The position numbers and the translations under genes are program-made. A stretch of 49,166 nucleotides of DNA, from the NCBI GenBank assembly GCA_903933935.1, contig CAIZMB010000051.1, positions 1-49,166 of the forward strand, written 5' to 3'. Numbering within the stretch: the first letter of the stretch is position 1; every line of letters starts with the position of its first letter. The DNA comes from an uncultured Cytophagaceae bacterium. Lineage in GTDB: Bacteria > Bacteroidota > Bacteroidia > Cytophagales > Spirosomataceae. Below are positions 32,642-47,484 of this stretch, piece by piece. The notes under the pieces were generated by a model. The model ran no database searches. It worked only from the letters and a program-made list of their open reading frames with translations, and was not told where the DNA came from.

Positions 32642-33277
32642 ATGGAAATTCATCCAATGCTTTTTACTCAATTCGAACCTGAATTATCCAAAAAAATTCA
32701 GCAAGTGGGCGTAGTCAGAAAATTCAAAACAGATGAATTCCTGATGAAGACGGGGCAGTCGATTCGTTCTGCAGTATTAGTGACCAAAGGCATCATAAAA
32801 GTATTCCGAGAGGATGATGAAGGAAATGAAATATTCATGTACAACCTACATCCTGGGGAAGCCTGCGCTATTTCGATGACTTGTGCGGCCCGACAAATCG
32901 CATCCCAAATTATGGCGAAAGCATTGATTGATACTGAAGTTATTGCCATTCCTGCCGAGTTAATGGATGAGTGGGGTTCAAAGTATAAATCTTGGTATCA
33001 ATTTGTATTAGAAACGTATCGATCTAGGTTTGAGGAATTATTGGATACCTTGGATCAAATTGCCTTTAGAAACTTAGATGAGCGTTTGCTTTGGTACCTA
33101 AAACAACATCAAAAAAGCTTAAAAACGAATGTCCTAAAGGCCTCATTTACCGAAATTGCCTATGAACTCAACTCGTCAAGAGAGGTTATTTCAAGGCTTA
33201 TCAAAAAATTAGCGGAGAAAGGACACATCAAAATGCATAAAAATCAAATTGAAATCATCGACTTAAAAGGACTGTGA
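32642..33277 (+). CDS. Crp/Fnr-family transcriptional regulator
   Basis: 211-residue DNA-binding regulator. Residues about 15-130 form the cyclic-nucleotide-binding-like sensor domain (VRKFKTDEFLMKTGQSIRSAVLVTKG, FMYNLHPGEACAISMTC). A long dimer helix and a winged-helix domain follow, with the recognition region FTEIAYELNSSREVISRLIKKL at about 165-186. Cysteines occur at C77 (EACAIS) and C83 (MTCAA), which could sense sulfur species or redox state, but this is speculation. A Crp-type site overlaps its own stop codon and precedes the sulfur operon, so the regulator most likely activates the genes next to it. Confidence 0.92.
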   Translation: MEIHPMLFTQFEPELSKKIQQVGVVRKFKTDEFLMKTGQSIRSAVLVTKGIIKVFREDDEGNEIFMYNLHPGEACAISMTCAARQIASQIMAKALIDTEVIAIPAELMDEWGSKYKSWYQFVLETYRSRFEELLDTLDQIAFRNLDERLLWYLKQHQKSLKTNVLKASFTEIAYELNSSREVISRLIKKLAEKGHIKMHKNQIEIIDLKGL

Positions 33278-33317
33278 TAAAAGTCACTAATTAGCATGGG
33301 AATTTGATCTAAATTTG
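33273..33317 (+). promoter_or_regulatory. Crp/Fnr-type operator plus promoter of the sulfur operon
   Basis: TGTGATAAAAGTCACT (33273-33288) fits the Crp consensus TGTGA-N6-TCACA except for the last base. A perfect -7 box TAAATTTG follows at 33310-33317, with no -33 element. The operator centre lies about 41 nt before the expected start site, the usual position for an activator touching RNA polymerase. The operator overlaps the stop codon of the Crp/Fnr gene. Confidence 0.7.
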
Positions 33318-33336
33318 TCCCAACAAAAAAAAGAAA

Positions 33337-34158
33337 ATGGAAATATTTGGCTATTTTGCCTCCTTACTCATCGGCTTATCCTTAGGTTTAATTGGCGGTG
33401 GCGGATCCATTTTAACAGTCCCTGTTTTAGTCTATCTGTTCGGCGTAAATCCAGTTTTAGCTACGGCCTATTCGTTATTTATCGTTGGCGCAAGTAGTCT
33501 AGTCGGCGCCTTCCCAAAATACAAACAAGGTTTAGTTAATTTAAAAACGGCTATCATCTTTGGGATTCCATCGATTCTATCCGTATTTGCTACGAGAAAA
33601 TTCATCGTTCCACTCATTCCAAATGAAGTATTTAGTTTTGGTGATTTCATCGTAACTAAATCCATTTTAATGATGGTCTTATTTGCCATTTTAATGGTAG
33701 CCGCATCCATCTCGATGATCCGAGGGAAATGCGAACAATGTGAAAAAGAAAAAGAAGGAAATTATATAGACGAAATTCAGGTATTCAACTATCCCTTGAT
33801 ACTTTTGGAAGGGGCTGTCGTAGGTATTTTAACTGGCTTAGTTGGCGCAGGGGGTGGATTTCTGATCATTCCAGCGCTTGTTATGCTGTCAAAACTATCC
33901 ATGAAGCAAGCCATTGGCACCTCTTTATTAATCATTGCCGCCAAATCATTAATTGGTTTCACTGGAGATTTAGGCCATCAAATCATTGATTGGAAATTAT
34001 TATTAACTGTCACGGGATTAGCCATTATAGGCATTTTCTTCGGAGACATTGTGAGTAAAAAAGTAGATGGGAACAAATTAAAAGTAGGTTTCGGCTGGTT
34101 TGTTTTGATTATGGGGGTTTATATCCTGGTCCAACAATTAGCATTTCCCATTAAATAA
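33337..34158 (+). CDS. TauE/SafE-family sulfite/sulfonate exporter
   Basis: 273-residue inner-membrane protein of the TauE/SafE (DUF81) family, about eight membrane helices. Both family repeats are visible: GLSLGLIGGGGSILTVPVLVYLFG at the start and GILTGLVGAGGGFLIIPALVMLSK in the second half. A short hydrophilic loop with two Cys residues (GKCEQCEKEKEG) separates the halves. Members export sulfite, sulfoacetate or similar anions. As first gene of the sulfur operon, it probably removes sulfite formed by the persulfide dioxygenase-like enzyme encoded 17 nt downstream. Confidence 0.88.
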   Translation: MEIFGYFASLLIGLSLGLIGGGGSILTVPVLVYLFGVNPVLATAYSLFIVGASSLVGAFPKYKQGLVNLKTAIIFGIPSILSVFATRKFIVPLIPNEVFSFGDFIVTKSILMMVLFAILMVAASISMIRGKCEQCEKEKEGNYIDEIQVFNYPLILLEGAVVGILTGLVGAGGGFLIIPALVMLSKLSMKQAIGTSLLIIAAKSLIGFTGDLGHQIIDWKLLLTVTGLAIIGIFFGDIVSKKVDGNKLKVGFGWFVLIMGVYILVQQLAFPIK

Positions 34159-34175
34159 TTTTAAAATTTAAAGCC

Positions 34176-35594
34176 ATGAAAGTAGAGCAAATTTACACAG
34201 GATGTTTAGCACAAGGTGCTTATTACATTGAGAACAATGGAGAAGCGGCCATTATTGACCCTCTACGTGAGGTTCAACCCTACATAGAAAAAGCTAAAAG
34301 AAATAATGCTAAAATCAAATATGTGTTTGAAACGCATTTTCATGCAGATTTTGTTTCAGGTCATTTAGATTTATCAGCAAAAACAGGGGCTCCGATTGTT
34401 TATGGGCCCAATGCTGCCTGTGGATTTGATTGTATTTCCGCTGAAGATGGACAAGAATTCCCTTTAGGAGAAGCTAAAATTCGTGTCGTTCATACCCCAG
34501 GTCATACGATGGAATCAACTTGCTTTTTACTAATCGATGAAGATGGGAAAGCCACAAGCTTATTCTCAGGGGACACCTTGTTTATTGGTGATGTAGGCCG
34601 ACCAGATTTAGCTCAAAAAGTATCCGCTGATTTAACAGAGGATATGTTAGCTGGATTTCTTTATGACTCATTACAAAATAAAATTATGCCTTTAGCAGAC
34701 GATATCATCGTATATCCAGCCCATGGAGCGGGTTCTGCTTGTGGTAAAAATATGAGTAAAGAGACTACGGATACCTTAGGAAATCAAAAGAAAACCAATT
34801 ATGCCTTGAACCCCGCGCTAAGCAGAGAACAATTCAAAAAAGAGGTATTAACTGGTTTAGTCGCACCACCAGCCTATTTTCCTTTAAACGTACTAATGAA
34901 TATTCAAGGGTATGATTCGATCGATAAGGTTTTGGAGCGAGGCCAACATGCCTTGTCACCTGCAGCTTTTGAAGCAGCGGCCAATGAAACATCTGCTTTG
35001 ATTTTAGATACCAGAAATGTCCAAACGTTTGCAGCAGGATTCGTACCCAATTCAATTAATATTGCCATAGATGGTTCTTTCGCACCATGGGTAGGCGCGA
35101 TGATTCCAGACATTAAGCAGGAAATATTACTAGTGACAGATGAAGGACGTGAAGAAGAAGTCATTACGCGATTGGCCAGAGTGGGCTACGATTTTACAAT
35201 TGGTTATTTAAAAGGCGGCATTACGGCTTGGAAGGATGCAGGAAAGGAGTTAGATCAAATCGAATCCATCTCTGTGGAGGAGACTTTGAATCGGGCCCAA
35301 TCAGGTGAAGGGGAAATCATTGATGTAAGAAAAAATAGCGAATACCTATCAGAGCATATTGTTGATGTGGAAAATGCACCCTTAGATTTCATTAATGACA
35401 GCATGCTCAAAATCAATAAGGACAAAACGTATTTTGTGCATTGTGCTAGTGGTTATCGATCGATGATATTTATTTCAACTTTAAGAGCAAGAGGCTACGA
35501 GAATTTAATTGATGTTCAAGGTGGATTTAAAGCGATTAAAGAATCTGAAAAATTCAAATTATCAGAATATGTTTGCCCGACGACTTTATTGTAG
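34176..35594 (+). CDS. ETHE1-type metallo-beta-lactamase fused to two rhodanese domains
   Basis: 472-residue cytosolic enzyme, probably a persulfide dioxygenase making sulfite from glutathione persulfide or a similar persulfide. The metallo-beta-lactamase part (1-230) has THFHADFVSGH, HTPGHTMEST, FSGDTLFIGDVGRPDL and YPAHGAGSACG. ETHE1 usually reads HxHADH, so Phe replaces the last His. The first rhodanese domain (about 270-360) lacks the active-site Cys (VTDEGREEE). The second (about 370-465) keeps it in HCASGYRS. The arrangement suggests sulfur transfer from the active rhodanese to the iron site. It is the second gene of the Crp/Fnr-linked operon. Confidence 0.9.
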   Translation: MKVEQIYTGCLAQGAYYIENNGEAAIIDPLREVQPYIEKAKRNNAKIKYVFETHFHADFVSGHLDLSAKTGAPIVYGPNAACGFDCISAEDGQEFPLGEAKIRVVHTPGHTMESTCFLLIDEDGKATSLFSGDTLFIGDVGRPDLAQKVSADLTEDMLAGFLYDSLQNKIMPLADDIIVYPAHGAGSACGKNMSKETTDTLGNQKKTNYALNPALSREQFKKEVLTGLVAPPAYFPLNVLMNIQGYDSIDKVLERGQHALSPAAFEAAANETSALILDTRNVQTFAAGFVPNSINIAIDGSFAPWVGAMIPDIKQEILLVTDEGREEEVITRLARVGYDFTIGYLKGGITAWKDAGKELDQIESISVEETLNRAQSGEGEIIDVRKNSEYLSEHIVDVENAPLDFINDSMLKINKDKTYFVHCASGYRSMIFISTLRARGYENLIDVQGGFKAIKESEKFKLSEYVCPTTLL

Positions 35595-35655
35595 ATCTTT
35601 CAACATATCAACTTTCAATAAAGGAACATTAATTTTTCAAATAAATAACAAGCTT

Positions 35656-35907
35656 ATGCTCGCTAACATCACACAAAATTGGGGATTAATGCGCGTTATT
35701 CGACTCGTTTTAGGCGGATATGCCATGATCGAAGCGGTAAAGGCGCATGAATTATTCATGGGCATGTTGGGACTTTTGATAGCCGGCATGGCCCTATTTA
35801 ATATGGGCTGTGGCGCACAAGGCTGTGGCGTTCCAATGGTAAAAAATACAAAAACCAAAGACCAAAATCAGGATGATGTAGAATATGAAGAAGTTCATTC
35901 TAAGTAA
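35656..35907 (+). CDS. YgaP-like DUF2892 membrane protein
   Basis: 83-residue protein with two membrane segments (MRVIRLVLGGYAMIEAV and FMGMLGLLIAGMALFNMG) and a Cys-rich turn (MGCGAQGCGVP). The tail is charged. It matches the DUF2892 membrane domain that in E. coli YgaP is fused to a rhodanese. I chose the ATG at 35656, since the reading frame above it only overlaps the end of the rhodanese gene. The two Cys residues at the membrane face could take part in sulfane sulfur transfer. The next small gene overlaps its last 23 bases. Confidence 0.85.
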   Translation: MLANITQNWGLMRVIRLVLGGYAMIEAVKAHELFMGMLGLLIAGMALFNMGCGAQGCGVPMVKNTKTKDQNQDDVEYEEVHSK

Positions 35908-36094
35908 TTTTTGGGAAATCCTAGGAGGGATTTTTGGAGGCTTTGTAGGCTATTTTTATTGGCGAGATATTGGCTGCTCAACAGGCACCTGCCCCATTAC
36001 TAGCAAACCTTTGAATAGTATATTGTACTTTGCATTTTTGGGATATTTATTTGTCAACATCATTTCCCAATGGCGAACACAAAAAAATCATTGA
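35885..36094 (+). CDS. Small DUF6132-like membrane protein with CSTGTC motif
   Basis: 69 residues with two membrane segments (WEILGGIFGGFVGYFYW and SILYFAFLGYLFVNII) around the loop RDIGCSTGTCPITSKP. Small proteins of this type (DUF6132) occur next to YeeE and rhodanese genes in Bacteroidota. The loop with two Cys residues resembles the one in the preceding protein, which suggests a common role in handling sulfur at the membrane. Function is not established. The overlap of 23 nt with the upstream gene indicates coupled translation. Confidence 0.8.
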   Translation: MKKFILSNFWEILGGIFGGFVGYFYWRDIGCSTGTCPITSKPLNSILYFAFLGYLFVNIISQWRTQKNH

Positions 36095-36107
36095 AATAAA
36101 TTAAATT

Positions 36108-36148
36108 TACCCAATACCTGTTACCTAATACCTATTACCTAATTTTTA
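36108..36148. repeat. Tandem TACCTAA-type intergenic repeat, copy 1
   Basis: Five units resembling TACCTAA or TACCTAT follow one another, beginning at TACCCAATACCTG. The part from 36127 to 36147 is identical over 21 bases to a copy beside msrB (42649-42669). It lies between the DUF6132-like gene and the first YeeE/YedE gene. Confidence 0.75.
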
Positions 36149-36160
36149 ACTTACCAAATA

Positions 36161-36724
36161 ATGATCGAAACATTAACTCAACCATGGCCATGGTATGTGG
36201 CAGGTACAATCATTGGACTCATTGTCCCTACCCTATTAATTTTAGGCAATAGGCATTTTGGAATTTCAGCCAATTTGAGGCACATGTGTGCGGCATGCTT
36301 CCCGAGCAACATCCCATTTTTCAAATATGATTGGAAGAAAGAATCTTGGAATTTATTTTTCATTGGGGGGATTTTAGTTGGCGGAATCATTTCAACTCAA
36401 TACTTAAACTCGCCTGATCCAGTGGTTATTCACCCAGATTTAGCTAAAGATTTAACTCAATTTGGGATTACTGATTTTTCCGGATTAGTGCCTGTTCAAT
36501 TATTTTCTTTTGACCAATTATTCACTGTTCGAGGATTGATCATGATGGTCGGGGGAGGATTTCTAGTCGGATTTGGCACTCGATATGCTGGGGGATGTAC
36601 TTCCGGACATGCTATTATGGGACTCAGTGATTTGCAATGGCCTTCTTTAGTAGCTACCATATGCTTTATGATTGGAGGGTTTTTGATGACTAACCTAATT
36701 TTACCTTATATTTTAGCCTTATAA
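36161..36724 (+). CDS. YeeE/YedE-family thiosulfate transporter, first half (TsuA-like)
   Basis: 187-residue inner-membrane protein corresponding to one half of E. coli YeeE/TsuA, which imports thiosulfate. About five membrane helices are visible. The functional Cys motif is TRYAGGCTSGHAIMGLSDL near residue 147, where thiosulfate is passed along conserved Cys residues. A second potential Cys pair is in HMCAACFPSN. The second half is encoded by the next gene, 2 nt later. Together they match the length of a single-chain YeeE. The operon position after persulfide oxidation genes fits uptake of external thiosulfate. Confidence 0.9.
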   Translation: MIETLTQPWPWYVAGTIIGLIVPTLLILGNRHFGISANLRHMCAACFPSNIPFFKYDWKKESWNLFFIGGILVGGIISTQYLNSPDPVVIHPDLAKDLTQFGITDFSGLVPVQLFSFDQLFTVRGLIMMVGGGFLVGFGTRYAGGCTSGHAIMGLSDLQWPSLVATICFMIGGFLMTNLILPYILAL

Positions 36725-36726
36725 AG

Positions 36727-37224
36727 ATGAAAATGAAACAAAAAGAAACGGATTTTGAGGTACGCTCACTAGACACCATGTGTGTCAATGAGTCTGAATT
36801 GGTTCACCCGTGGTGGTATAATTTTAAATATGCTGCAGTGGGAGTGATTTTTGGCATTGTATTTATCAAAGCTGAGATTATCTCTTGGTTTAGAATTCAG
36901 GAAATGTTTAAGTTACAAAGCTTCCACATGTATGGCGTGATTGGAACGGCGGTTGTTGTAGGAGCTATTTCAGTGTTTTTAATCAAAAAACTAAAGATTA
37001 AAACCATTCATGGAGAAGAAATTACTTTTACAAATAAGAAATTCAACAAAGGCCAAGTTTATGGTGGATTGATATTTGGTCTGGGTTGGGCCATCACTGG
37101 CGCATGCCCTGGACCCTTATTCGCCCAATTAGGTTCCGGCTCCCTTGCTGTAATAGTGGTCATTGCCAGTGCTATTGCAGGGACATGGGTTTACGGAAAA
37201 TTCAGAGACCAGTTGCCGCATTAG
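36727..37224 (+). CDS. YeeE/YedE-family thiosulfate transporter, second half (DUF6691 type)
   Basis: 165-residue inner-membrane protein, about four helices, the partner of the preceding gene. The conserved motif is GLGWAITGACPGPLFAQLGSG near residue 120-140, with Cys126 corresponding to one of the thiosulfate-relay Cys residues of TsuA. The N-terminal 25 residues are hydrophilic. Two-gene versions of YeeE/YedE are common in Bacteroidota and Proteobacteria, so the split is not a frameshift. Confidence 0.88.
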   Translation: MKMKQKETDFEVRSLDTMCVNESELVHPWWYNFKYAAVGVIFGIVFIKAEIISWFRIQEMFKLQSFHMYGVIGTAVVVGAISVFLIKKLKIKTIHGEEITFTNKKFNKGQVYGGLIFGLGWAITGACPGPLFAQLGSGSLAVIVVIASAIAGTWVYGKFRDQLPH

Positions 37225-37302
37225 GGAAAAGCATCAGAAAAAAAATACAGAGAACTAGAAGTATAATCAAAAATAAAATTTGGCCAATCTTAATATATAA
37301 TA

Positions 37303-37575
37303 ATGGGAAAATTTATGATTAATATCCAATTAGAAGGATTGGACACAGAAACAAGAATGAAATTACTCCCTAGGGAACAGGAGCTAGTGAAAGAGCTGGA
37401 GCAAAATGGAACCATTATAGAAACCTATATTAAACTTGACATGTCAGGGATTTACATGGTAATAATCGCCGCAGATTCTAACGATGTACATACAAAACTT
37501 TCAATTTTGCCCTATTACCCTTTTATGAAAATTGAAATAGTTCCCATAAGAATGGTCAACAATATCAACCAGTAA
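37303..37575 (+). CDS. Small ferredoxin-like fold protein, weakly like muconolactone isomerase
   Basis: 90 residues without signal or membrane segment. The pattern of strand-helix-strand-strand-helix-strand and phrases such as REQELVKELEQNG, MSGIYMVIIAADSNDVHTKL and LPYYPFMKIEIVPI recall muconolactone delta-isomerase and YCII-like dimeric proteins. I would not assign a reaction. It starts 78 nt after the transporter gene, with a near -7 box (AAAATTTG, about 37276) in between, so it may be transcribed separately. A second ATG four codons later is possible. Confidence 0.65.
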   Translation: MGKFMINIQLEGLDTETRMKLLPREQELVKELEQNGTIIETYIKLDMSGIYMVIIAADSNDVHTKLSILPYYPFMKIEIVPIRMVNNINQ

Positions 37576-38064
37576 GAAAAATGCCTCTTGAATAGAGAAA
37601 ATTCAAAAGCAATTCTGAGATATTCCAGCAAGAAATACACCTACTTTAATTTTTAGTGTACCAATCTTTGATCAGCTTATAGGATCCAAATGGGCGATAA
37701 AAAGGCTTTAGGGTAACATTCTACTCATAAATACCCACATCTCTTTGAACTTCTTGATCTATGATAAATGATCATCTAGTGTAATAATTCTTCTTTCTTA
37801 TTTCATAGCTTCTGAATTTAATGGGTCCTAAACTCATTTAAAAATTCGGTTTAGTTTTAAAAATAACTGAACTAATTTCCTCCTCATAGGCGTAGGTGCA
37901 AGCCATAAATCTTCTTAGCTTCCATCGTTGACAAAGTGTTGTTTAAAATATGTGGCATATTAAAATTTGATTTCAAATGCATTCAACTCACAGTTCCATT
38001 TTATAGAATTTCAAAAAACCTTGATGTAAAAACATGAATAAGTAAATTTTTTAAAAATGCCTAA
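37576..38064. other. 489-nt region without an intact gene
   Basis: This stretch holds no open gene of its own. Its left part contains a decayed copy of the end of tsdA on the minus strand (annotated separately). The remainder is AT-rich, lacks a convincing hairpin and shows stop codons in all frames. The last part presumably carries the promoter of the GH5 gene, but I see no perfect -7 box. Confidence 0.6.
37654..37715 (-). pseudogene. Remnant of the C-terminus of a TsdA-like cytochrome gene
   Basis: Read on the minus strand it gives LKPFYRPFGSYKLIKDWYTKN and a stop. The intact TsdA at 39.5 kb ends KPFDHPFGPY, then 14 extra residues, then KPIKDWYAKN and a stop. The final 47 bases differ at only about five positions from the intact copy. 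The 14-residue gap lies between two FGPY repeats, which suggests a deletion between short direct repeats. No upstream haem motif (CxxCH) survives. It is a direct repeat of the intact gene end, with the GH5 gene between them. Confidence 0.75.
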
Positions 38065-39333
38065 ATGAAAAAAAAACTAACGATCGCATTATTATCAATC
38101 ATTTTATTTTCAATAAAAAACGATGTCTATTCTCAAACGCCTTTTGGTGTAAATTTAGCTGGGGCTGATTTCGGATCTAACTTTCCAGGGACCTATAATG
38201 TAGATTACACTTATCCTACCAGTGTAGAATTAGATTACTATCATGCGAAAGGTTTAAATTTAATTCGATTACCCATTAAGTGGGAAAGAATTCAGCCTAT
38301 TTTAAATGGTAATTTAAGTGACGCCGAATTAGTACGAATAAAAAACTTCCTCTTATTAGCACAAAATCGAAATATGAATGTGATCATTGATCTCCATAAT
38401 TATTGCCGATATAATATAAAAGGAATAGATAAAATCATAGGGTCAAATGATTTAAGTATAGCTAATATAAAAAATTTGTGGACTCAACTGGCATTAGAAT
38501 TAAAGACTTATACAAATATTTGGGGTTATGGCATCATGAATGAGCCACATGATTTATTAGTAAATGTACCCTGGTTCAATATTGCACAAGAAATTATTAA
38601 TGGGATTAGAATAAATGACCTAAAGACAAGAATAATTGTCGGTGGAGATAGTTGGAGTTCAGCTGAACGTTGGATGCAGTATAGCAATAATTTAAAAAAC
38701 CTTTCCGACCCCTCAAACAAACTAACTTTTGAAGCTCATGTATATTTTGATAAAGATGCATCAGGTTTATATGTTAATAATTATGATAATGAAGGAGCAT
38801 ATCCCAATATTGGCATTGACAGAGTAGCACCCTTTGTAAACTGGCTTAAAACAAATAATCTAAATGGTTTTATCGGAGAATATGGTGTACCAGCAAATGA
38901 TAACCGCTGGATAATAGCGCTCAATAATTTCTTGAGTTATTTAAAAGAGAATTGTATTAACGGAACATATTGGGCAGGCGGTCCATGGTGGGGCAATTAT
39001 ATTCTTTCTATTGAACCTGTACTTGGTATAGATAAACCACAAATGAGTACTTTGCTTAAACACCTGAGTACAAACGCTAATTGTCCCTCATTAAATATCG
39101 ATTATGTAACGATTCCTTTAAATCAATATCATTTTTCACCTAACCCCTTCCTTGACAAAATAAAAATTAGCGGGATTAATGAAGGTGAATATATAAATAT
39201 TTATGACATGTATGGAAGACTTATTAATTCTCAAAAAATTATTAATTCAAGCATTGATAATTTAGGTAATTTAAAACCAGGTATATATTTTCTTAAATAC
39301 AAAGATTTAATTGTTTCGAAAATGATTAAATAA
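38065..39333 (+). CDS. Secreted GH5-family cellulase with T9SS C-terminal sorting domain
   Basis: 422-residue secreted glycoside hydrolase family 5 enzyme, probably endo-beta-1,4-glucanase or a related beta-mannanase. A signal peptide ends near VYSQ (residue 24). The (beta/alpha)8 domain runs to about residue 340, with IRLPIKWERI, the acid/base E160 in GYGIMNEPH and the nucleophile E272 in GFIGEYG; YWAGGPWWG is typical of family 5. Residues about 350-422 form a type A T9SS sorting domain (YHFSPNPFLDKIKIS ... LKPGIYFLKY ... KMIK). The gene appears more AT-rich than its neighbours and sits between sulfur genes, so recent acquisition is plausible. Confidence 0.92.
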   Translation: MKKKLTIALLSIILFSIKNDVYSQTPFGVNLAGADFGSNFPGTYNVDYTYPTSVELDYYHAKGLNLIRLPIKWERIQPILNGNLSDAELVRIKNFLLLAQNRNMNVIIDLHNYCRYNIKGIDKIIGSNDLSIANIKNLWTQLALELKTYTNIWGYGIMNEPHDLLVNVPWFNIAQEIINGIRINDLKTRIIVGGDSWSSAERWMQYSNNLKNLSDPSNKLTFEAHVYFDKDASGLYVNNYDNEGAYPNIGIDRVAPFVNWLKTNNLNGFIGEYGVPANDNRWIIALNNFLSYLKENCINGTYWAGGPWWGNYILSIEPVLGIDKPQMSTLLKHLSTNANCPSLNIDYVTIPLNQYHFSPNPFLDKIKISGINEGEYINIYDMYGRLINSQKIINSSIDNLGNLKPGIYFLKYKDLIVSKMIK

Positions 39334-39505
39334 AAATTTTAAAATTAGAGATTCAATATAGCCTTAGCTCTGTAAGTGTGCAAGCCCAATAGACTATGGC
39401 CAATGGGCATTAGGAGTCTAGGTAATTAAGAAACAACCTATTAAAATAAAAGACCTTTTGCCCTCATTTTATTGGGATAAAAGGAATATTTCGACCATTT
39501 CTCTT

Positions 39506-40534
39506 TTAATTTTTTGCGTACCAATCTTTAATCGGCTTATAGGGTCCAAATTTATGTTGTTCCTCTGTGAAAGGATCCGCATAAGGCCCGAATGGATGGT
39601 CAAACGGTTTCTTTGAAATTTTTGGCCAATCCATTGACAAATCTTTGCTTGGCCTTGGCATCGAATTAACATAAGCGGCTACATCCCAAGCTTCCTCATC
39701 CGTTAATACTGGCTTTTTAAAGGTTGTTCCTTGTGGCATGTTGTATTTTACGTAACCCGCAAAATTCGAAATTCGAAACAAACCAGCTCCATGGTTATAG
39801 CTATTTTTACCCCATAAAGGTGGATAGGTGTAGGATTTGCCATTTTCGGCCAATAAGCCTCCCCCATCCGCTTGATGACAAGACTGACATTTAGCCACAT
39901 AAACCTCCAAACCCTTTGAGGGATCGCAAGCTCTTTTCATTCCTTTTAATTTAAATATACCAGCACCCCTTGGAATCTTATCTTTCTCCACGTCATTTCC
40001 AAGCCATTTAATATAAGCTAAAATGGCACGCATCTCTCTGCCCGTAGAATCCAAGGCTTTTCCATTTAAACTCCTTTGAAAGCAATCATTGACACGTTTA
40101 ATTTGATTTTCTACGGTTCCTGAACGGGCTCGGAATTTCGGATAGGTCGATTGAACAGCAAAATAATTATTTCCCCAAGGTTGGGTTCCCGCATTCAAAT
40201 GACAATTCTGACAATTCATCCCATTAGACATTTGTAAAACTGAACCCTTGGGACCTAAATATTCGGAAGTATGCGCAATGAGTTCTCGGCCATATTTCAC
40301 TAAATCTCTCTCGCTTGAATCCAAATACATCAAACGCCAATCAGAAGGTGCTGTCCAAACATGGTTGAAATTTGTGTCTGGAGCAATAAAAACTTGAATG
40401 GAATCGGTTGAATTTTCAGATCCGACCTTCGGCAGATAAAATACACTAAAACCTAAAAGTGTAAATAATAACAATAGACATCCATATAAAAATGTGGATA
40501 GTCTTTGGAATAATTTTTGATTAGGAAAACTCAC
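39506..40534 (-). CDS. tsdA: TsdA-like diheme thiosulfate dehydrogenase
   Basis: 342-residue c-type cytochrome that most likely oxidises thiosulfate to tetrathionate (or the reverse) in the periplasm. An N-terminal membrane anchor spans about residues 13-34. Haem 1 is bound by C108-x-x-C111-H112 (NCQNCHLNAGTQPW) and haem 2 by C216-x-x-C219-H220 (KCQSCHQADGGG). C151 in RVNDCFQRSLNG matches the Cys that serves as unusual haem ligand in TsdA. PPLWGKNSYNHGAG, MPQGTTF and the tail GPYKPIKDW are also family marks. It lies 6 nt after the dsrE-like gene and forms an operon with it. The direction of the reaction in the cell is not known. Confidence 0.88.
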   Translation of the reverse strand: MSFPNQKLFQRLSTFLYGCLLLLFTLLGFSVFYLPKVGSENSTDSIQVFIAPDTNFNHVWTAPSDWRLMYLDSSERDLVKYGRELIAHTSEYLGPKGSVLQMSNGMNCQNCHLNAGTQPWGNNYFAVQSTYPKFRARSGTVENQIKRVNDCFQRSLNGKALDSTGREMRAILAYIKWLGNDVEKDKIPRGAGIFKLKGMKRACDPSKGLEVYVAKCQSCHQADGGGLLAENGKSYTYPPLWGKNSYNHGAGLFRISNFAGYVKYNMPQGTTFKKPVLTDEEAWDVAAYVNSMPRPSKDLSMDWPKISKKPFDHPFGPYADPFTEEQHKFGPYKPIKDWYAKN

Positions 40535-40540
40535 AGCTAA

Positions 40541-40948
40541 TTAATATTTCAAATAGGCCCAGCCCTCTTCTTGCTTAATGATTACTTCTGAAACACCTGA
40601 GGGAACAAATCCGGATTGAGGCAAAATGGTAGCCTTATCTATTTTACGTTCTCGAATGGTATTTTCACAAGCCACAAACTTAACACCCATGGCTGCTAAT
40701 TCAGCAATTTTAGCTTGTTGGGTTGTCTTGGAAGCAATGAGTAAACCAATTCCAGAACCATGAGCCACCACTTCAATTTGAGTGTTATTACCTAAGGCTG
40801 TCTGCATATTAGCGATATTTCGCATGACACCATGCCAGACAGTTGTATCCGCGGTATTGATTTGCATTACTACTTTATGTGTTTTTTGGGCAAAGGCCGA
40901 AACAGAGATAAATAGCCCAATGATTGTTGTTAATATTAGTTTTTTCAT
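40541..40948 (-). CDS. Exported DsrE-family sulfur carrier-like protein
   Basis: 135-residue protein of the DsrE/DsrF fold with a cleavable signal peptide (MKKLILTTIIGLFISVSAFAQ), so it acts outside the cytoplasm, unlike classic DsrE. The core shows HKVVMQINTADTTVW, IEVVAHGSGIGLLI and AAMGVKFVACENTIRER, where C103 stands at the place of the active-site Cys of the family. It precedes tsdA by 6 nt. I infer that it carries or binds sulfane sulfur for TsdA or for the rhodanese-thioredoxin lipoprotein encoded nearby. Confidence 0.85.
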   Translation of the reverse strand: MKKLILTTIIGLFISVSAFAQKTHKVVMQINTADTTVWHGVMRNIANMQTALGNNTQIEVVAHGSGIGLLIASKTTQQAKIAELAAMGVKFVACENTIRERKIDKATILPQSGFVPSGVSEVIIKQEEGWAYLKY

Positions 40949-40983
40949 GGTGTGATTTTTTTTAAAACTAGCATTTTAAAATT

Positions 40984-41094
40984 ATGAAAGCAAATTGGGA
41001 TAAACGATTCAACACAGAAGATTTTCAATACAGAAGCGCGCCAAATGATTTCTTTAGATTGAAAATCGACCCATTAAAATTAGTGCAAATATAA
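40984..41094 (+). pseudogene. Remnant N-terminus of a class I SAM-dependent methyltransferase
   Basis: A 36-codon frame starting with ATG encodes WDKRFNTEDFQYRSAPNDFF and ends IDPLKLVQI before a stop. It matches the N-terminus of TehB-like SAM methyltransferases (usual form W(D/N)xRFxxEEYxYGxxPNxFFxxxIDxL). The Rossmann motif that should follow (about 160 more residues) is absent. It lies between the divergent dsrE and rhodanese genes. It could still be expressed as a short peptide, but a broken gene is more likely. Confidence 0.65.
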
Positions 41095-41156
41095 ATGACC
41101 GATTACTAGAAGGATCGAATAAATATCAGCTCCATGGTATTCATTTTATTGATGTT

Positions 41157-41201
41157 GCGGACAAATGTCACGAATTCCAAATTATTGACTTCGTAGATTT
41201 G
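41157..41201 (+). promoter_or_regulatory. Second Crp/Fnr-type site plus promoter, before the rhodanese gene
   Basis: GTCACGAATT at 41167-41176 is followed by the perfect -7 box TAGATTTG at 41194-41201. The distance from GTCAC to the -7 box is 27 nt, exactly as at the sulfur operon promoter (33283 to 33310). The left half-site is poor (GCGGA in place of TGTGA). There is no -33 element, consistent with an activated promoter. Confidence 0.6.
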
Positions 41202-41219: not shown

Positions 41220-41522
41220 ATGATCGAATTAATAAAAAGTTTATTGGGCTTAGGTGAAAAAGTAAATGTTAAAGAACTTATAGCCAATGGCGCTGTCGTT
41301 CTTGATGTTCGATCCCCAGCAGAATTTAAAGATGGACACATCAAAGGGGCACTTAATTTCCCACTGCAAAATTTAACCTCACAAATGAACAAATTAAAGA
41401 AAGAACAAGTTATTGTAACTTGTTGCCGTTCTGGAAGCCGAAGTGGAATGGCAAAACGCATGTTAAAGTCCAATGGATTCCTACACGTGCATAATGGGGG
41501 CCCTTGGACTAATTTAAGATAA
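41220..41522 (+). CDS. Single-domain rhodanese
   Basis: 100-residue cytosolic sulfurtransferase. A short helix (IELIKSLLGLG) precedes the rhodanese domain with VVLDVRSPAEFKDGHIKGALNFP and the active-site loop TCCRSGSRSGMAKRML, where the second Cys (C69) is the persulfide carrier. It starts 18 nt after a perfect -7 box, and the ATG at 41220 is preferred to a TTG seven codons earlier that would overlap that promoter. It leads a three-gene unit with two thioredoxin-domain proteins, which would reduce its persulfide. Confidence 0.92.
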   Translation: MIELIKSLLGLGEKVNVKELIANGAVVLDVRSPAEFKDGHIKGALNFPLQNLTSQMNKLKKEQVIVTCCRSGSRSGMAKRMLKSNGFLHVHNGGPWTNLR

Positions 41523-41539
41523 GACAAAACACGAATATT

Positions 41540-41836
41540 ATGAGCAAATTCAGCGAACTTTTAAAGACGCCAGAACCCGTTTTAGTTGATTTTTCAGCGG
41601 AATGGTGCGGCCCTTGCAAGCAATTAAAGCCTATTTTAGAACAATTAAAATCCAAAGTAGGCGGATCAGCTAAAATCATCAAGATTGACGTAGATAAAAA
41701 CAAATCATTATCGGACCAATTCCAAATCAGATCCGTGCCGACCTTAATTTTATTTAAAGATGGGAAATCGGTTTGGCGCCAATCGGGGGTTGTTCCCGCC
41801 CATACATTGGAAGGCATCATCAAACAGTATGTGTGA
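41540..41836 (+). CDS. Thioredoxin
   Basis: 98-residue cytosolic thioredoxin fold with the active site SAEWCGPCKQLKP at about residue 23-35, IIKIDVDKNKSLSDQF and the cis-Pro loop SVPTLILFKDGK. It is slightly shorter than E. coli TrxA (109). It lies 17 nt after the rhodanese gene and probably reduces rhodanese persulfide, releasing sulfide, or supports MsrB. Confidence 0.92.
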   Translation: MSKFSELLKTPEPVLVDFSAEWCGPCKQLKPILEQLKSKVGGSAKIIKIDVDKNKSLSDQFQIRSVPTLILFKDGKSVWRQSGVVPAHTLEGIIKQYV

Positions 41837-41869: not shown

Positions 41870-42574
41870 ATGAAAAAAATAGTATTATTAACCTCATTCG
41901 CATTTCTCATATTCTCTTGTAGTACAAAACAAGGCCAGCAAAACCTTGATGCAACTGCCTTTCAAAAAGAAATAAATTCAGCGTCTAAGAAACAAATTTT
42001 GGATGTAAGGTCGGCTGAAGAGTTTCAAAATGGACATATTGAAGGAGCAGTTAATGCAGATATTAATTCGCCTAATTTCCAACAAATAGCCACCACCTTA
42101 GAAAAAACAGAAACAGTATTCGTTTATTGCCTTTCTGGGGCAAGGTCGGCCTCTGCCGCCGGTCAATTAAAAGAAATGGGCTTTTCAAAGATCGTTAATT
42201 TAACGGGGGGAATGCTCGCTTGGCAATCAGCTAATTTACCCGTTGCCACAAATCAATTATCAAATGCGTCTAATGGTCTAACAGAAACTACTTTCGCGGC
42301 TAAAATAAAAGGAAAGCCGATGGTCATCATTGACTATAATGCTACTTGGTGCGGCCCTTGCAAACAACTAAGCCCTATTTTAAAGGCATGGGTAAAAACA
42401 CAAAAAGGGGCCGTTGAGCTCATCGAAATAGACGTTGACGAAAATCAAGAACTCGCAAAATCCAAAAAAATCGAAGCGATACCCTACCTTGAAATGTATA
42501 AAAATGGAGAAAAAACTTGGTCCAGCGTGGGACTGATTGGCAAGGAGGAATTAGATAAATCTTTGGGTAAATAA
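41870..42574 (+). CDS. Rhodanese-thioredoxin fusion lipoprotein
   Basis: 234-residue lipoprotein (MKKIVLLTSFAFLIFSC, lipobox Cys at 17). Residues about 28-122 are a rhodanese domain with ILDVRSAEEFQNGHIEGAV and active-site YCLSGARSAS. Residues about 140-234 are a thioredoxin domain with ATWCGPCKQLSP and AIPYLEMYKNG. The fusion places persulfide formation and its reduction on one chain outside the cytoplasm, facing the exported DsrE and TsdA proteins. It closes the rhodanese-thioredoxin unit; the repeat hairpin after it may end transcription. Confidence 0.92.
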   Translation: MKKIVLLTSFAFLIFSCSTKQGQQNLDATAFQKEINSASKKQILDVRSAEEFQNGHIEGAVNADINSPNFQQIATTLEKTETVFVYCLSGARSASAAGQLKEMGFSKIVNLTGGMLAWQSANLPVATNQLSNASNGLTETTFAAKIKGKPMVIIDYNATWCGPCKQLSPILKAWVKTQKGAVELIEIDVDENQELAKSKKIEAIPYLEMYKNGEKTWSSVGLIGKEELDKSLGK

Positions 42575-43252: not shown

Positions 43253-46183
43253 TTAATCGGCCCGTCGCGGATCTACCCGCCAGCCTAATTTCCTCAAAGC
43301 CTGAACGCGTAAACTGCGGTGTTCAAACTCCTCCATGACTACACCTTTCATCCAATAAACGCCTCCTCCACGGAAAGAATACTGTTTTAAGTCGGAGGGA
43401 AAATGTAAGGTATCAAAAAACTCGCCCCGAACATCCACAAAATAGCCAAAGTACATACGCTCCCCCGCCTTTGTGCGAGTCGGCTTAAGCGTAACTAAAT
43501 ACCCCAATATATCCCCTCGTTCATAACATAAATCGGCATTCAATAATGTTTCAGGGAGTTCGTCCACCAAGTCAAAGGGAGAACAGAGCGGAAATCCCAA
43601 AATCTCCCACTGATCAAATGCGTCTTCGATCTCATCATGCACCAACTCCGGCAGTACCCCTAAATTCGCAGAATCATCCGCAAACATCTCCATCGAAACC
43701 ACCTGAGATACCTTTCCCTGAAAACGAGCATGCGCCTCCCACAGTAAGGGTTTCTTTTGCAAGCCTAAATTCCTAAAAGCACCCACACGAATCAATAAAA
43801 TCGCCTGTTCCAAACCTAATGATACTCGGTGAACAAAATCATCCCAAGATCGAAATGGACCCAATTGCGCCCTAGAAGTAATAAAATCCTGAATGACACG
43901 CTTCTCCAGGCCTTTGACATGCACCCAACCTAAATAAATCACAGAGCCCCGAATGCTCGTCAAATACCCACTCTCATTAATCTCAGGAGCCTCCACCTGC
44001 GCGCCACAGCGCCTAGCCTCATGTACATAAAATTCGGTCCGGTAAAATCCTCCGAAATTATTGATTACCGCCACCATAAATTCCAAGGGGTAATAAGTCT
44101 TCAGATACAGACTTTGATAACTCTCTACTGCAAATGAAGCCGAATGTGCCTTGGAAAAACTATATCCAGAAAAGCTTTCCATCTGCCTCCACACTTCGCT
44201 GGCGACGGCCAACTCATACCCTTTGTCCGCACAATTTACAAAAAAAGCCTCCCGTATTCGGTCAAATTCTGACCTAGATCGGTACTTGCCCGACATCCCT
44301 CGCCTCAGCACATCCGCCTCCGCCAAACTTAAACCCGCAAAATAATGCGCCACCTTAATGACATCTTCTTGGTATACCATCACCCCATACGTTTCTTTCA
44401 TTAATTCCCCCATCAAAGGATGGACAGGCTCATAAGAATCCGGTGCATGAAAACGCTCAATATAAGCCTTCATCATCCCAGAAGAGGCCACACCCGGACG
44501 AATAATCGATGAGGCCGCAACCAAGGTCAAATAATCCTGACACCTTAATTTTTTAAGTAGTTGGCGCATCGCCGGAGACTCAATGTAAAAACAACCCATG
44601 GTTTCGTGGCGCATCAACTGCCTCCTGACTTGTTCATCGCGCATGAAATCCTGCACGCGGTGAATGTCTACATCTTGGCCTCGATTAGCCCGAATGATGT
44701 CCACCGATTCTTTAATGTGCCCTAAGCCTCTTTGAGACAAAATATCAAACTTCGCAAAACCAATCTCCTCCGCCACATGCATATCAAATTGGCAAATAGG
44801 AAAACCTTTGGGCATAGGTTCCAAGGCCGTATAATGAGCTAAAGGATGCTCAGAAATCAAAATTCCTCCCGCATGAATGCTCAAATAATTAGGAAAATCA
44901 AGCAACAAATTTCCATATTTTACGATCAAACGCTGAACCTCAGACCCCACCTCGCGCATCGCAGCCGCCGGATCCAGCCAAGCATCCACCTCCGATTTAG
45001 GTAAGCCAAAAACCTTGGCCAATTCCCGGTAAATCGATTTATCCCGAAAAGTTACATAGGTCGCCAACAAACACACATATTTTGCCCCATAACGCTTAAA
45101 AATATAATCAATAATGTCATCCCGCTCATCCCACGAAAAATCAATATCAAAATCAGGTGGACTAGTCCGATGTGGATTAATAAATCGCTCAAAATACAAA
45201 TCTAAATCCACCGGATCCACATCCGTAATTCCCAAACAATAAGCCACTATCGAATTCGCACCCGAACCTCGGCCTACGTGAAAATACCCTCTAGAACGCG
45301 CGTAGCGAATAATATCCCAGGTAATTAAAAAATACGCATTGAAGCCAAGCTCATTAATGACCTTTAATTCTTTCTCAACCCTCGCCTTAGCCTCCCGGTC
45401 CGAACGCGGATACCGATACCGCAACCCCTCATAAGCAAGCTTAGTCAAAAGAGCCAAATCATCCTCCGAACTCGACCCAAAAAGTACCCGATTCTTTGAA
45501 CATTTAAAATCAAATTCAAAGGAACAATCTGCTAAAATCCGAGCCGACTCCTCCAGTAAAAATGGGTAATCCTGGCAGTAATCTGCTAACTCTTCTTGCG
45601 TGTACATACGCTCATCTTCCTGAGCTTGTGCATCCACAGAAAGTTTACTCAATAGTGTATTTTCATCGATTGAACGCAGCAAACGATGCATCGAAAAACC
45701 CCGCCTGTCCAAAAACGTAAACGGCTGACACCAAACCGTCTTATCCCAATCCGTTTCCTTCCACAAACGATTGCGATCACTCGCCCGTACCCCCCAGCGC
45801 TCACGCTCCCCTAAATTTTTGAGTTTTTTTTTACGAACCCAAGGAAAAATAGTCCATACATCCTCCCACTCTGGAGGACGCTCAGGCCAAGACTCCTCGG
45901 CCAATAAGTACGTTGAGGCAAAAGCATTAATCTGCGCCATACCATGGGCGTTCCGAGCGAGACATATATACATCAACGTATGATTGTTTCTGAATTCCAT
46001 CCCCACCACAGGTTTGATACCTGCATCCCAACAAGCCTGAACAAAATCAAAAACCCCTGATGCTCTGTGAATATCCGTCAGTGCTAATGTTTTTATCCCA
46101 CGCAACACCGCCTCCGCCACCAATTGCTCAGGGGAGAGTGTTCCATAACGTAAACTATAATAGGAATGGCAATTTAAATACAT
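43253..46183 (-). CDS. dnaE2: Error-prone DNA polymerase III alpha subunit (DnaE2/ImuC-like)
   Basis: 976-residue C-family DNA polymerase for damage-tolerant synthesis. The PHP domain opens with YLNCHSYYSLRYGTLSPEQL and ALTDIHRASGVF. The catalytic palm has the acidic pair in SPPDFDIDFSWDERDD (about residue 350) and GRGSGANSIVAYCLGI before it. Finger and helix-hairpin-helix regions follow (KAHSASFAVESYQSLYLKTYYP). An OB-fold region ends the chain. It is shorter than replicative DnaE (about 1160) and lacks the usual C-terminal extension, as expected for the accessory enzyme. It starts 2 nt after the dinB stop and is controlled with it. Confidence 0.9.
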   Translation of the reverse strand: MYLNCHSYYSLRYGTLSPEQLVAEAVLRGIKTLALTDIHRASGVFDFVQACWDAGIKPVVGMEFRNNHTLMYICLARNAHGMAQINAFASTYLLAEESWPERPPEWEDVWTIFPWVRKKKLKNLGERERWGVRASDRNRLWKETDWDKTVWCQPFTFLDRRGFSMHRLLRSIDENTLLSKLSVDAQAQEDERMYTQEELADYCQDYPFLLEESARILADCSFEFDFKCSKNRVLFGSSSEDDLALLTKLAYEGLRYRYPRSDREAKARVEKELKVINELGFNAYFLITWDIIRYARSRGYFHVGRGSGANSIVAYCLGITDVDPVDLDLYFERFINPHRTSPPDFDIDFSWDERDDIIDYIFKRYGAKYVCLLATYVTFRDKSIYRELAKVFGLPKSEVDAWLDPAAAMREVGSEVQRLIVKYGNLLLDFPNYLSIHAGGILISEHPLAHYTALEPMPKGFPICQFDMHVAEEIGFAKFDILSQRGLGHIKESVDIIRANRGQDVDIHRVQDFMRDEQVRRQLMRHETMGCFYIESPAMRQLLKKLRCQDYLTLVAASSIIRPGVASSGMMKAYIERFHAPDSYEPVHPLMGELMKETYGVMVYQEDVIKVAHYFAGLSLAEADVLRRGMSGKYRSRSEFDRIREAFFVNCADKGYELAVASEVWRQMESFSGYSFSKAHSASFAVESYQSLYLKTYYPLEFMVAVINNFGGFYRTEFYVHEARRCGAQVEAPEINESGYLTSIRGSVIYLGWVHVKGLEKRVIQDFITSRAQLGPFRSWDDFVHRVSLGLEQAILLIRVGAFRNLGLQKKPLLWEAHARFQGKVSQVVSMEMFADDSANLGVLPELVHDEIEDAFDQWEILGFPLCSPFDLVDELPETLLNADLCYERGDILGYLVTLKPTRTKAGERMYFGYFVDVRGEFFDTLHFPSDLKQYSFRGGGVYWMKGVVMEEFEHRSLRVQALRKLGWRVDPRRAD

Positions 46184-46185
46184 GT

Positions 46186-47376
46186 TTACTCGTCCGTATT
46201 AGTGGCTAATCGATTCCTACGTTCTGAACTTCCCATTAATCCACTAGCCCTCAAAATCGAAAACTCTCCATAGCGATTTCTTAATTTATCCATCGCCCCA
46301 TACAAAGGAACCAATCGAGCTCCCTCATCAAAAATCTGCAACTGCTCCTGCCCTTGCCATAGTTTTGAAAAGCGAACGCCAATAAGTCGGATCAACAAGC
46401 GACGATCATACAATTTCTCAAAAAGCTCCTGAACCGCAGGAATCAGTCGGTGATCACTGGCCGAAGCTGGAATGCTGATTTGTCGAGTATGCGTATCAAA
46501 ATTCGAGTACCTTACCTTCACCGTCACACAAGCCGTGCATTGCCCAAGCTTCCGTAAATCATACGATAATTGTTCTGTCAACGACCCCAAAATACGACGC
46601 AACAAAACCACATCCGTACTGTCTTGTTCAAATGTGATTTCCTTCGACAAAGACTTCTGCTCAGAATAAGGAACTACAGGCCTCAAATCAATCCCGTTAG
46701 CCCGCTCCCAAAGAACGGTCCCCGATTTACCAAAAGTCTTTTCCAATATTTTCAAAGGCATCTGACTCAAAGTACCCACATGAACGATGCCCATATTGCG
46801 TAAGGTTTGAGAAGTAACCGCACCGATCATCGGAATCTTACCCACCGGCATAGGGGCCAAAAATGATTTTTCCTGACCCGCGAATACCTGAAATTCCCCC
46901 GCCGGCTTAACATGATTGGTCGCCACTTTTGAAACCGTCTTATTCACCGATAGACCAAAAGACATTTGCAAACCAATCTCCTTTTTTATCCGATTTCGAA
47001 GGTCTTGAGCAAAAGAATAAGAACCGAAAAAACGCTCCATACCCGTCATATCAAGGTAAAATTCGTCAATAGAAGCCTTTTCAACCAAAGGAGCTCTCCC
47101 CATAATTAGCGAGGTCACCGCCTCCGAATGTTGGGTATATGCATCAAAATCACCCCGCAAGACAATCGCATCCGGACATAATTTCAATGCCATCTTCATG
47201 GGCATAGCCGAACGTACCCCAAAAGCCCGCGTCTCATAACTGCATGCCGCCACCACCCCACGATCAGACATCCCACCCACAATGACCGGTTTCCCCACAA
47301 GCCTAGTATCCCGGAGACGTTCCACCGAAACAAAAAAACTATCCAGATCCATGTGCACAATGGCGCGTTCTTGCAT
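46186..47376 (-). CDS. dinB: DNA polymerase IV (Y-family)
   Basis: 396-residue translesion polymerase. The palm starts with IVHMDLDSFFVSVERL (metal-binding D10 and the E of VER), and the second acidic site is EKASIDEFYLDMTG near residue 100. Helix-hairpin-helix (PVGKIPMIGAVTSQTLRNMGI) and little finger domains follow (ITFEQDSTD and the CTACVTVKVRYSNF strand). The C-terminal tail lacks a clear QLxLF clamp motif, though LQIFDEGARLVPLYG near residue 353 could play that part. It leads the dinB-dnaE2 operon and is divergent from the S24 regulator with 108 nt between them. Confidence 0.93.
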   Translation of the reverse strand: MQERAIVHMDLDSFFVSVERLRDTRLVGKPVIVGGMSDRGVVAACSYETRAFGVRSAMPMKMALKLCPDAIVLRGDFDAYTQHSEAVTSLIMGRAPLVEKASIDEFYLDMTGMERFFGSYSFAQDLRNRIKKEIGLQMSFGLSVNKTVSKVATNHVKPAGEFQVFAGQEKSFLAPMPVGKIPMIGAVTSQTLRNMGIVHVGTLSQMPLKILEKTFGKSGTVLWERANGIDLRPVVPYSEQKSLSKEITFEQDSTDVVLLRRILGSLTEQLSYDLRKLGQCTACVTVKVRYSNFDTHTRQISIPASASDHRLIPAVQELFEKLYDRRLLIRLIGVRFSKLWQGQEQLQIFDEGARLVPLYGAMDKLRNRYGEFSILRASGLMGSSERRNRLATNTDE

Positions 47377-47394
47377 AAAATTGGTAGATATTTG

Positions 47395-47458
47395 GGTATT
47401 TTGAATACCTTTCGTAACTTCGAAAAGATTATCAATAAAATTCAGCTACGAATTTTAT
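47395..47458. promoter_or_regulatory. Two palindromes between dinB and the S24 regulator gene
   Basis: GGTATT-TTG-AATACC (47395-47409) and ATAAAATTC-AGCTAC-GAATTTTAT (47435-47443 with 47450-47458) are both perfect inverted repeats in the 108-nt divergent region. They are placed as operators for the LexA-like regulator, one near each gene. The first lies about 20 nt before dinB and the second about 27 nt before the regulator start. Confidence 0.55.
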
Positions 47459-47484
47459 CCATTTTAGTTTAATAAGCAAATCTT

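Follow-up and report, generated by a model that had tools for sequence, protein, structure and literature searches.

The locus

The stretch analysed here, called the window throughout, is the whole 49,166-nucleotide contig CAIZMB010000051.1 (positions 1 to 49,166, forward strand) of assembly GCA_903933935.1 from an uncultured Cytophagaceae bacterium, placed by GTDB in the Spirosomataceae. It carries a gene for a Crp/Fnr-type regulator directly upstream of a putative sulfur-oxidation operon that begins with a TauE-family exporter gene, and, further downstream, a second unit encoding rhodaneses and thioredoxin. Comparison across the genus (Aquirufa) and beyond gives strong support to the proposal that the promoters of both units would be controlled by this adjacent Crp/Fnr protein. 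The features on which the argument draws are as follows.

32642-33277, + strand: Crp/Fnr regulator, 211 amino acids (PF00027 and PF13545 over cut-off; alignment with E. coli CRP)
33274-33287, + strand: operator 1, palindrome GTGATAAAAGTCAC, overlapping the regulator stop codon and conserved before TauE in the genus
33310-33317, + strand: -7 box TAAATTTG of the TauE operon; in the genus loci its TTTG is at offset 26
33337-34158, + strand: TauE/SafE-family exporter, putative sulfite export (PF01925, 147.9 bits)
34176-35594, + strand: metallo-beta-lactamase (MBL) plus rhodanese protein, persulfide-dioxygenase-like (PF00753, PF00581; nearest solved structures 3tp9 and 3r2u)
35656-35907, + strand: small operon protein, DUF2892-like by eye only, no family match in profile scans
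36161-36724, + strand: YeeE/YedE half transporter (PF04143)
36727-37224, + strand: second YeeE/YedE half, DUF6691 (PF20398, PF04143)
39506-40534, - strand: c-type cytochrome with SoxA/TsdA-type domain (PF21342, PF00034)
40541-40948, - strand: DsrE/F-like protein (PF02635)
41158-41171, + strand: operator 2, CGGACAAATGTCAC, right half conserved in the genus, left half weaker
41194-41201, + strand: -7 box TAGATTTG of the rhodanese-thioredoxin unit
41220-41522, + strand: single-domain rhodanese (PF00581)
41540-41836, + strand: thioredoxin (TIGR01068 over cut-off)
41870-42574, + strand: rhodanese-thioredoxin fusion (PF00581, PF00085)

Results

Two promoters with the same geometry

The original prediction, made from the sequence of the window, was that the half-site GTCACnAATT stands at the same distance before a perfect -7 box at both sulfur promoters. 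This is borne out: GTCACTAATT (33283-33292) precedes the -7 box of the TauE operon, and GTCACGAATT (41167-41176) that of the rhodanese-thioredoxin unit, with a start-to-start distance from half-site to box of 27 in both cases. Read by the -33/-7 promoter rule, both promoters also lack a -33 element, as had been proposed, with TTTG absent directly after the half-site at each. The description of the first site as a near-perfect Crp palindrome lying over the end of the regulator gene was likewise correct, operator 1 containing the stop codon TGA at 33275-33277, while the second site is an incomplete palindrome with the left half CGGAC (41158-41162).

Taken alone, the half-site is not significant in the window (2 seen against 0.52 expected, with 9 of 100 shuffles reaching 2); joined to the -7 box, it is seen twice and in none of 100 shuffles, which is significant. 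Across the 2.89 Mb assembly of 198 contigs the exact composite matches these two places only, rather than being scattered before unrelated genes, and it appears in none of 12 simulated genomes. The looser pattern RTCAC-N22-TAnnTTTG gives 5 places against 2 for the reversed pattern, the three beyond the two promoters lying within reading frames, and GTCAC-N22-TAnnTTTG is expected 1.67 times per genome, so that the single genome proves little by itself.

Conservation in the genus

The comparison with related genomes is more telling. After exclusion of 10 of the 41 genus loci for an incomplete TauE start, every one of the 31 readable regions, from 31 genomes including that of the window, has a strict GTGAY-N4-RTCAC before TauE with TTTG exactly 26 nt after it. 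In most of the same-genus loci inspected the palindrome TGTGAT-N4-ATCAC follows the regulator stop codon, and in the branch of the genus to which the window belongs the TGA lies inside the palindrome. GTCACnAATT thus captured the right half of the true site, the conserved motif being the palindrome GTGAY-N4-RTCAC; similarly, perfect -7 boxes are present in the window, but only their TTTG is constant across the genus.

For the rhodanese promoter, 34 of 38 genomes were matched and loci were obtained for 30 matches, of which L097 was dropped for a truncated start. RTCACG precedes the rhodanese gene in all 29 readable loci, window included, with left halves that read GAGAC, CGGAC, GGGAC, AGGAC or GAGAT and, in one case, GTGAC; one relative (L101) has the full palindrome. 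Of 28 loci parsed for spacing, 27 have TTTG at offset 26 and one reads TTTA (L103, outside these 28, was read by eye for RTCACG). Since the intervening sequence varies, the spacing between operator and box itself looks selected.

A genus-wide search for palindrome, spacer and TAnnTTTG returned 39 matches from 31 of the 38 genomes, against a single match for the reversed pattern. The spacing was 22 nt in 31 of them, 21 in 3 and 23 in 5, and 24 of the 39 lie at TauE, rhodanese or SQR/cytochrome genes, as judged by position or by likeness to a translated match. We set aside the five matches with 23-nt spacing, one of which (L249) lies inside a TonB-receptor-like gene, the other four looking alike.

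Two relatives carry extra copies of the palindrome after the regulator and before TauE; there, an outer-membrane protein gene with its own operator stands between the two genes (L057:4227-5486 and L059:12952-14361). The L059 protein matches OprD below threshold; these proteins are candidate porins for sulfur compounds.

Occurrence across the Bacteroidota

From at least 592 matching stretches in named genomes, 80 loci were kept, which by record title come mainly from Flavobacterium, Chitinophagaceae, Pedobacter and uncultured Bacteroidota. In 74 of the 80, the regulator has a gene for TauE, MBL-rhodanese, YeeE or rhodanese no more than 5 kb away. These loci hold 116 relaxed sites ahead of genes for the regulator, TauE, MBL-rhodanese, YeeE, a cytochrome or a rhodanese, and TTTG follows at offset 26 in 93 of them and at 27 in 8 (together 101), with any other offset reaching at most 4. 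Elsewhere in the same loci there are 73 sites, 13 with TTTG at 26, which are possibly further targets. A form of the operator that differs by one base, GTGATAAATGTTAC, precedes TauE in many Flavobacterium loci. A contig titled Thermoanaerobaculia (L225) also carries a regulator (50% identity), an operator and TauE (72%), by horizontal transfer or through a binning error.

Co-occurrence of operator and regulator

Among 200 family genomes the regulator was found in 141, a count that includes divergent paralogues, and the dioxygenase-like gene in 199; two genomes of the genus itself (G174 and G186) gave no regulator match in this search. Of the 57 regulator-lacking genomes outside the genus, 54 have no match at 1e-6 and three have matches of 22-25% identity. 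We scored the relaxed operator within 300 nt upstream of the dioxygenase-like gene or TauE. With the regulator present, it was found in 64 of 68 readable named loci and 12 of 14 readable family loci (12 of 80 and 7 of 21, respectively, had no readable upstream region); in regulator-lacking genomes it was found in 2 of 30 loci, these having been obtained for 30 of the 56 such genomes with a dioxygenase-like gene. Composition shuffles give expectations of 0.38, 0.08 and 0.26 for the named, family and regulator-lacking sets. The Fisher p value of 2.6e-18 is uncorrected for relatedness and is descriptive only. TauE lies in the flank of 15 of the 30 regulator-lacking loci, so the difference in sites is not one of gene order alone.

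Copies of the dioxygenase-like gene away from the regulator have the site in 7 of 17 cases; of 20 extra copies, three that lie near a regulator and have a site (L337, L344 and L349) were left out of the 17, and in the genomes that supplied L338-L340 the match to the regulator is either a divergent paralogue or unplaced in the list. Left out of the family set were L122, L141 and L161, the last two being matches of 35% and 32%. L141 and L161 encode divergent regulator paralogues with the helix ARVVVSR and without the second cysteine, and no strict operator was found in the stretches fetched for them.

The regulator protein

The regulator has the two parts that define the Crp/Fnr superfamily, an N-terminal beta barrel like that of cyclic-nucleotide-binding proteins (PF00027, 35.1 bits) and a C-terminal Crp-type helix-turn-helix (HTH) domain (PF13545, HTH_Crp_2, 38.4 bits), both over cut-off, and its AlphaFold model (pLDDT 82.5, pTM 0.59) matches CRP folds. 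Identity to E. coli CRP is 19%, yet the recognition helix S-R-E-V-I-S-R shares S179, R180, E181 and R185 with it, and the CRP-type R180, E181 and R185 fit a GTGA-type operator. Only one other protein of this genome scores over the Crp-HTH cut-off, a receiver fusion with the helix ATESVIRTL.

The only cysteines of the regulator, C75 and C81, are invariant in alignments A1 and A2, and the Cys-X5-Cys pair recurs in 80 of 80 named homologues, a conserved cysteine pair also being characteristic of the persulfide-responsive regulators CstR, SqrR, BigR and FisR. The pair aligns with the phosphate-binding cassette of CRP. In the model C75 lies at the end of a strand and C81 in the following short helix, in a region of moderate confidence (local pLDDT about 70). 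E72 and R82 of CRP, the Glu and Arg of the cassette that binds the phosphate of cyclic AMP (cAMP), are aligned to Ile77 and Ala87 in this 19%-identity alignment, with the cassette serine kept. With the aligned Glu and Arg absent, cAMP was rejected as the ligand. The cluster of FNR, a 4Fe-4S centre, needs four cysteines, and an FNR-type cluster was rejected as the default because the regulator has two.

Plausible targets beyond the two promoters

On contig C131 of this genome, a gene for a major-facilitator transporter that ends in a rhodanese domain is preceded by a strict site, again with the offset seen at the two promoters, to TAATTTTA; on contig C79 another strict site precedes an 87-residue heavy-metal-associated (HMA) protein whose genus relatives also have the site. 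The transporter fusion is seen at L355:1582-3012 with a strict operator at 1501, and the HMA/CopZ-like protein recurs as an operator-bearing gene at L353:1187-1450 and L247:1217-1480, which hints at a link between copper and sulfur. Relatives add an SQR-like oxidoreductase (scoring below the cut-off of its model), a c-type cytochrome and a peroxiredoxin. By position, then, operators precede persulfide dioxygenase-like, rhodanese, SQR-like and TauE genes. No strict operator was found before the c-type cytochrome gene of the window, although many relatives have one nearby. The original prediction of a small local regulon therefore stands in that both sulfur promoters are tied comparatively to the adjacent Crp/Fnr gene, and falls in its restriction to the locus, as two further plausible targets in the genome and the wide occurrence in Bacteroidota argue for more than a local regulon.

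Other features of the window

The end of the cytochrome gene (39505-39551) recurs as a 47-nt stretch of 89% identity at 37645-37691. Between the two copies stands a gene for a GH5 cellulase with a Por secretion tail (38065-39333), whose insertion may have produced the duplication. At 43253-48186, reading of the translations by eye suggests consecutive DNA polymerase III alpha-like, Y-family polymerase-like and LexA-like genes, a possible mutagenesis cassette.

Discussion

We consider it quite probable that a dedicated Crp/Fnr activator, bound at a class-II-like position, switches on a regulon for sulfide and persulfide oxidation. Control by the adjacent regulator is supported by the conservation of the sites, their constant spacing, the CRP-type residues of the recognition helix and the rarity of the site where the regulator is missing. 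In this model a regulator dimer would bind GTGAY-N4-RTCAC at operator 1 and a half-degenerate form of it at operator 2, would occupy the position of the absent -33 element and would recruit RNA polymerase. In both operators the centre lies 29.5 bp upstream of the start of the -7 box. Transcription usually starts 5 nt after TTTG, and the class II position of CRP is -41.5; if the usual start applies here, the centre of the palindrome would fall at -41.5, a class-II-like arrangement. A fixed distance favours activation, since repressor sites can drift, and with the spacing fixed and the centre predicted at this position, we favour activation over repression. Together, the persulfide-dioxygenase-like MBL-rhodanese, the rhodaneses, the thioredoxin, the TauE exporter and the YeeE transporters would then convert sulfane sulfur to sulfite or thiosulfate and carry it across the membrane.

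The signal is the least certain step of the model. Judging from the target genes, there is perhaps an even chance that it is sulfane sulfur, as persulfide or polysulfide, acting on C75 and C81, a pair that would take the place of the cyclic-nucleotide phosphate cassette. Somewhat more tentatively, many Bacteroidota may possess a Crp/Fnr-fold sulfane-sulfur sensor in which Cys-X5-Cys replaces the cassette and a polysulfide cross-link or persulfidation plays the allosteric role of cAMP.

Several observations weigh against this picture. In this genome the strict palindrome alone is found at 7 places against 6 for the reversed pattern, which is no enrichment, and 4 of the 7 lie within or downstream of unrelated genes. 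(Genome-wide palindrome enrichment was dropped as support: TGTGATNNNNATCACR with two mismatches gave 245 and 223 places against 83 and 76 for the reversed pattern, but so loose a pattern may mirror common codons, and neither this count nor the strict one was used.) Operator 2 agrees with the palindrome at three of the five left-half positions only. The dioxygenase-like gene is kept in 56 of the 57 family genomes without the regulator, which is thus dispensable for it. The loci of the co-occurrence comparison are interrelated, so that the p value overstates their independence, and the gene copies compared are not all orthologous. Six of the 82 regulator-positive loci have no relaxed site (L139, L158, L169, L179, L190 and L203), and of eight further regulator-positive loci outside the main comparison (L289-L296), five have it and L289, L290 and L291 do not. 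Conversely, two regulator-lacking genomes, G014 (98% complete) and G035 (63%), have the site, and G014 is an unexplained exception to the co-occurrence. The cysteine pair could instead serve structure or the binding of metal or heme. The sites of G014 and G035 (L282 and L284) are GTAAC-type operators before TauE, in genomes where no regulator was found.

That the regulator binds the sites in answer to something other than persulfide we regard as unlikely while taking it seriously. The signal could then be oxygen or nitric oxide, sensed by a cluster or heme, or glutathione-like thiols, or thiol oxidation in general: the fold matches include structures of FNR, HcpR and DNR, a peroxiredoxin gene has the site in at least one relative, and PMC7315123 reports that glutathione activates Vfr and PrfA, two members of the superfamily. 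Two cysteines fall short of the four of the FNR cluster, however, and the 24 of 39 genus matches at TauE, rhodanese or SQR/cytochrome genes point to sulfur. It is rather improbable that the regulator acts as a repressor, one that keeps RNA polymerase off these promoters until sulfide or persulfide frees them, in the manner of SqrR, BigR and CstR. The operator does cover the -33 region of the promoter, and several known persulfide regulators are repressors according to section 6 of PMC9774590. Class II activation, however, would lead one to expect both the missing -33 element and the unvarying distance to the -7 box, seen at about a hundred promoters.

We give little credence to the idea that the sites are read by another Crp/Fnr-type protein and that the regulator gene stands beside them by coincidence. 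The motif does resemble TGTGA, the half-site of E. coli CRP, and G014 has a site with no detected regulator. Yet only two proteins of this genome score above the Crp-HTH cut-off, of which the neighbouring regulator alone has the R-E-x3-R helix, and the site is rare in genomes that lack this regulator. Least credible of all is that operator 2 is a chance half-site and the TauE promoter alone is regulated: a left half as poor as CGGAC and a half-site expected about 0.5 times in the window would suit it, but RTCACG in 29 of 29 genus loci, at the same spacing across variable intervening sequence, and the full palindrome at this place in L101 would be hard to reconcile with chance.

Compared with known systems, the Crp/Fnr activator proposed here shares with E. 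coli CRP the superfamily, the base-reading R180, E181 and R185, the half-site GTGA and an operator over the -35/-33 region, and differs from it in the residues aligned with the cassette Glu and Arg, the Cys-X5-Cys found there, the sulfur targets and the low overall identity. Its best match in sequence (3.6e-20) and in fold is a Crp/Fnr protein of Eubacterium rectale (3dv8), which also has Cys-X5-Cys (C-LLSAS-C); that structure is titled only as a putative regulator, with no regulon or ligand in the entries seen. CstR of Staphylococcus aureus and BigR and SqrR of Pseudomonadota sense persulfide with two cysteines and control sulfide-detoxification genes such as persulfide dioxygenase and YeeE-YedE (PMC9774590 section 6; PMC7315123), as the window regulator would; these are CsoR-like and ArsR-family repressors, whereas the window regulator belongs to Crp/Fnr and probably activates. 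In Cupriavidus and Acinetobacter, FisR activates, according to PMC7315123, a sulfide-oxidation operon with SQR, PDO and TauE; it is a sigma-54 activator with an AAA+ domain, from an unrelated family.

A reported case of such chemistry is the Crp-like protein A1S_1182 of Acinetobacter baumannii, about 50% identical to E. coli Crp, which is persulfidated after sulfide exposure with an effect given as unknown (PMC7315123); this report makes persulfide sensing by our regulator plausible. The same text places the sulfide-oxidation operons of Acinetobacter under FisR and BigR, and A1S_1182 differs from the window regulator in family branch and targets. Section 6 of PMC9774590 names CstR, SqrR, BigR, PigS, FisR, OxyR, LasR and OhrR as reactive-sulfur sensors and calls none of them Crp/Fnr. 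Our search found no paper that describes control of sulfide oxidation by a Crp/Fnr protein in Bacteroidota, though the spelling 'Crp/Fnr' and subscription journals may have caused papers to be missed, and this silence is weak evidence of absence. None of eight papers listed in a search on Aquirufa concerned that genus.

What emerges is probably a conserved, and apparently uncharacterised, sulfur-response switch. If the model is correct, it would give much of the Bacteroidota an activator that responds to sulfide and would provide, in GTRAY-N4-RTYAC-N22-n4-TTTG, a predictive rule for finding new sulfur genes. It would also offer a concrete chemical hypothesis for the Crp/Fnr subfamily of 3dv8, whose structure is solved but unexplained, and the same cassette in that protein would extend the mechanism beyond the Bacteroidota.

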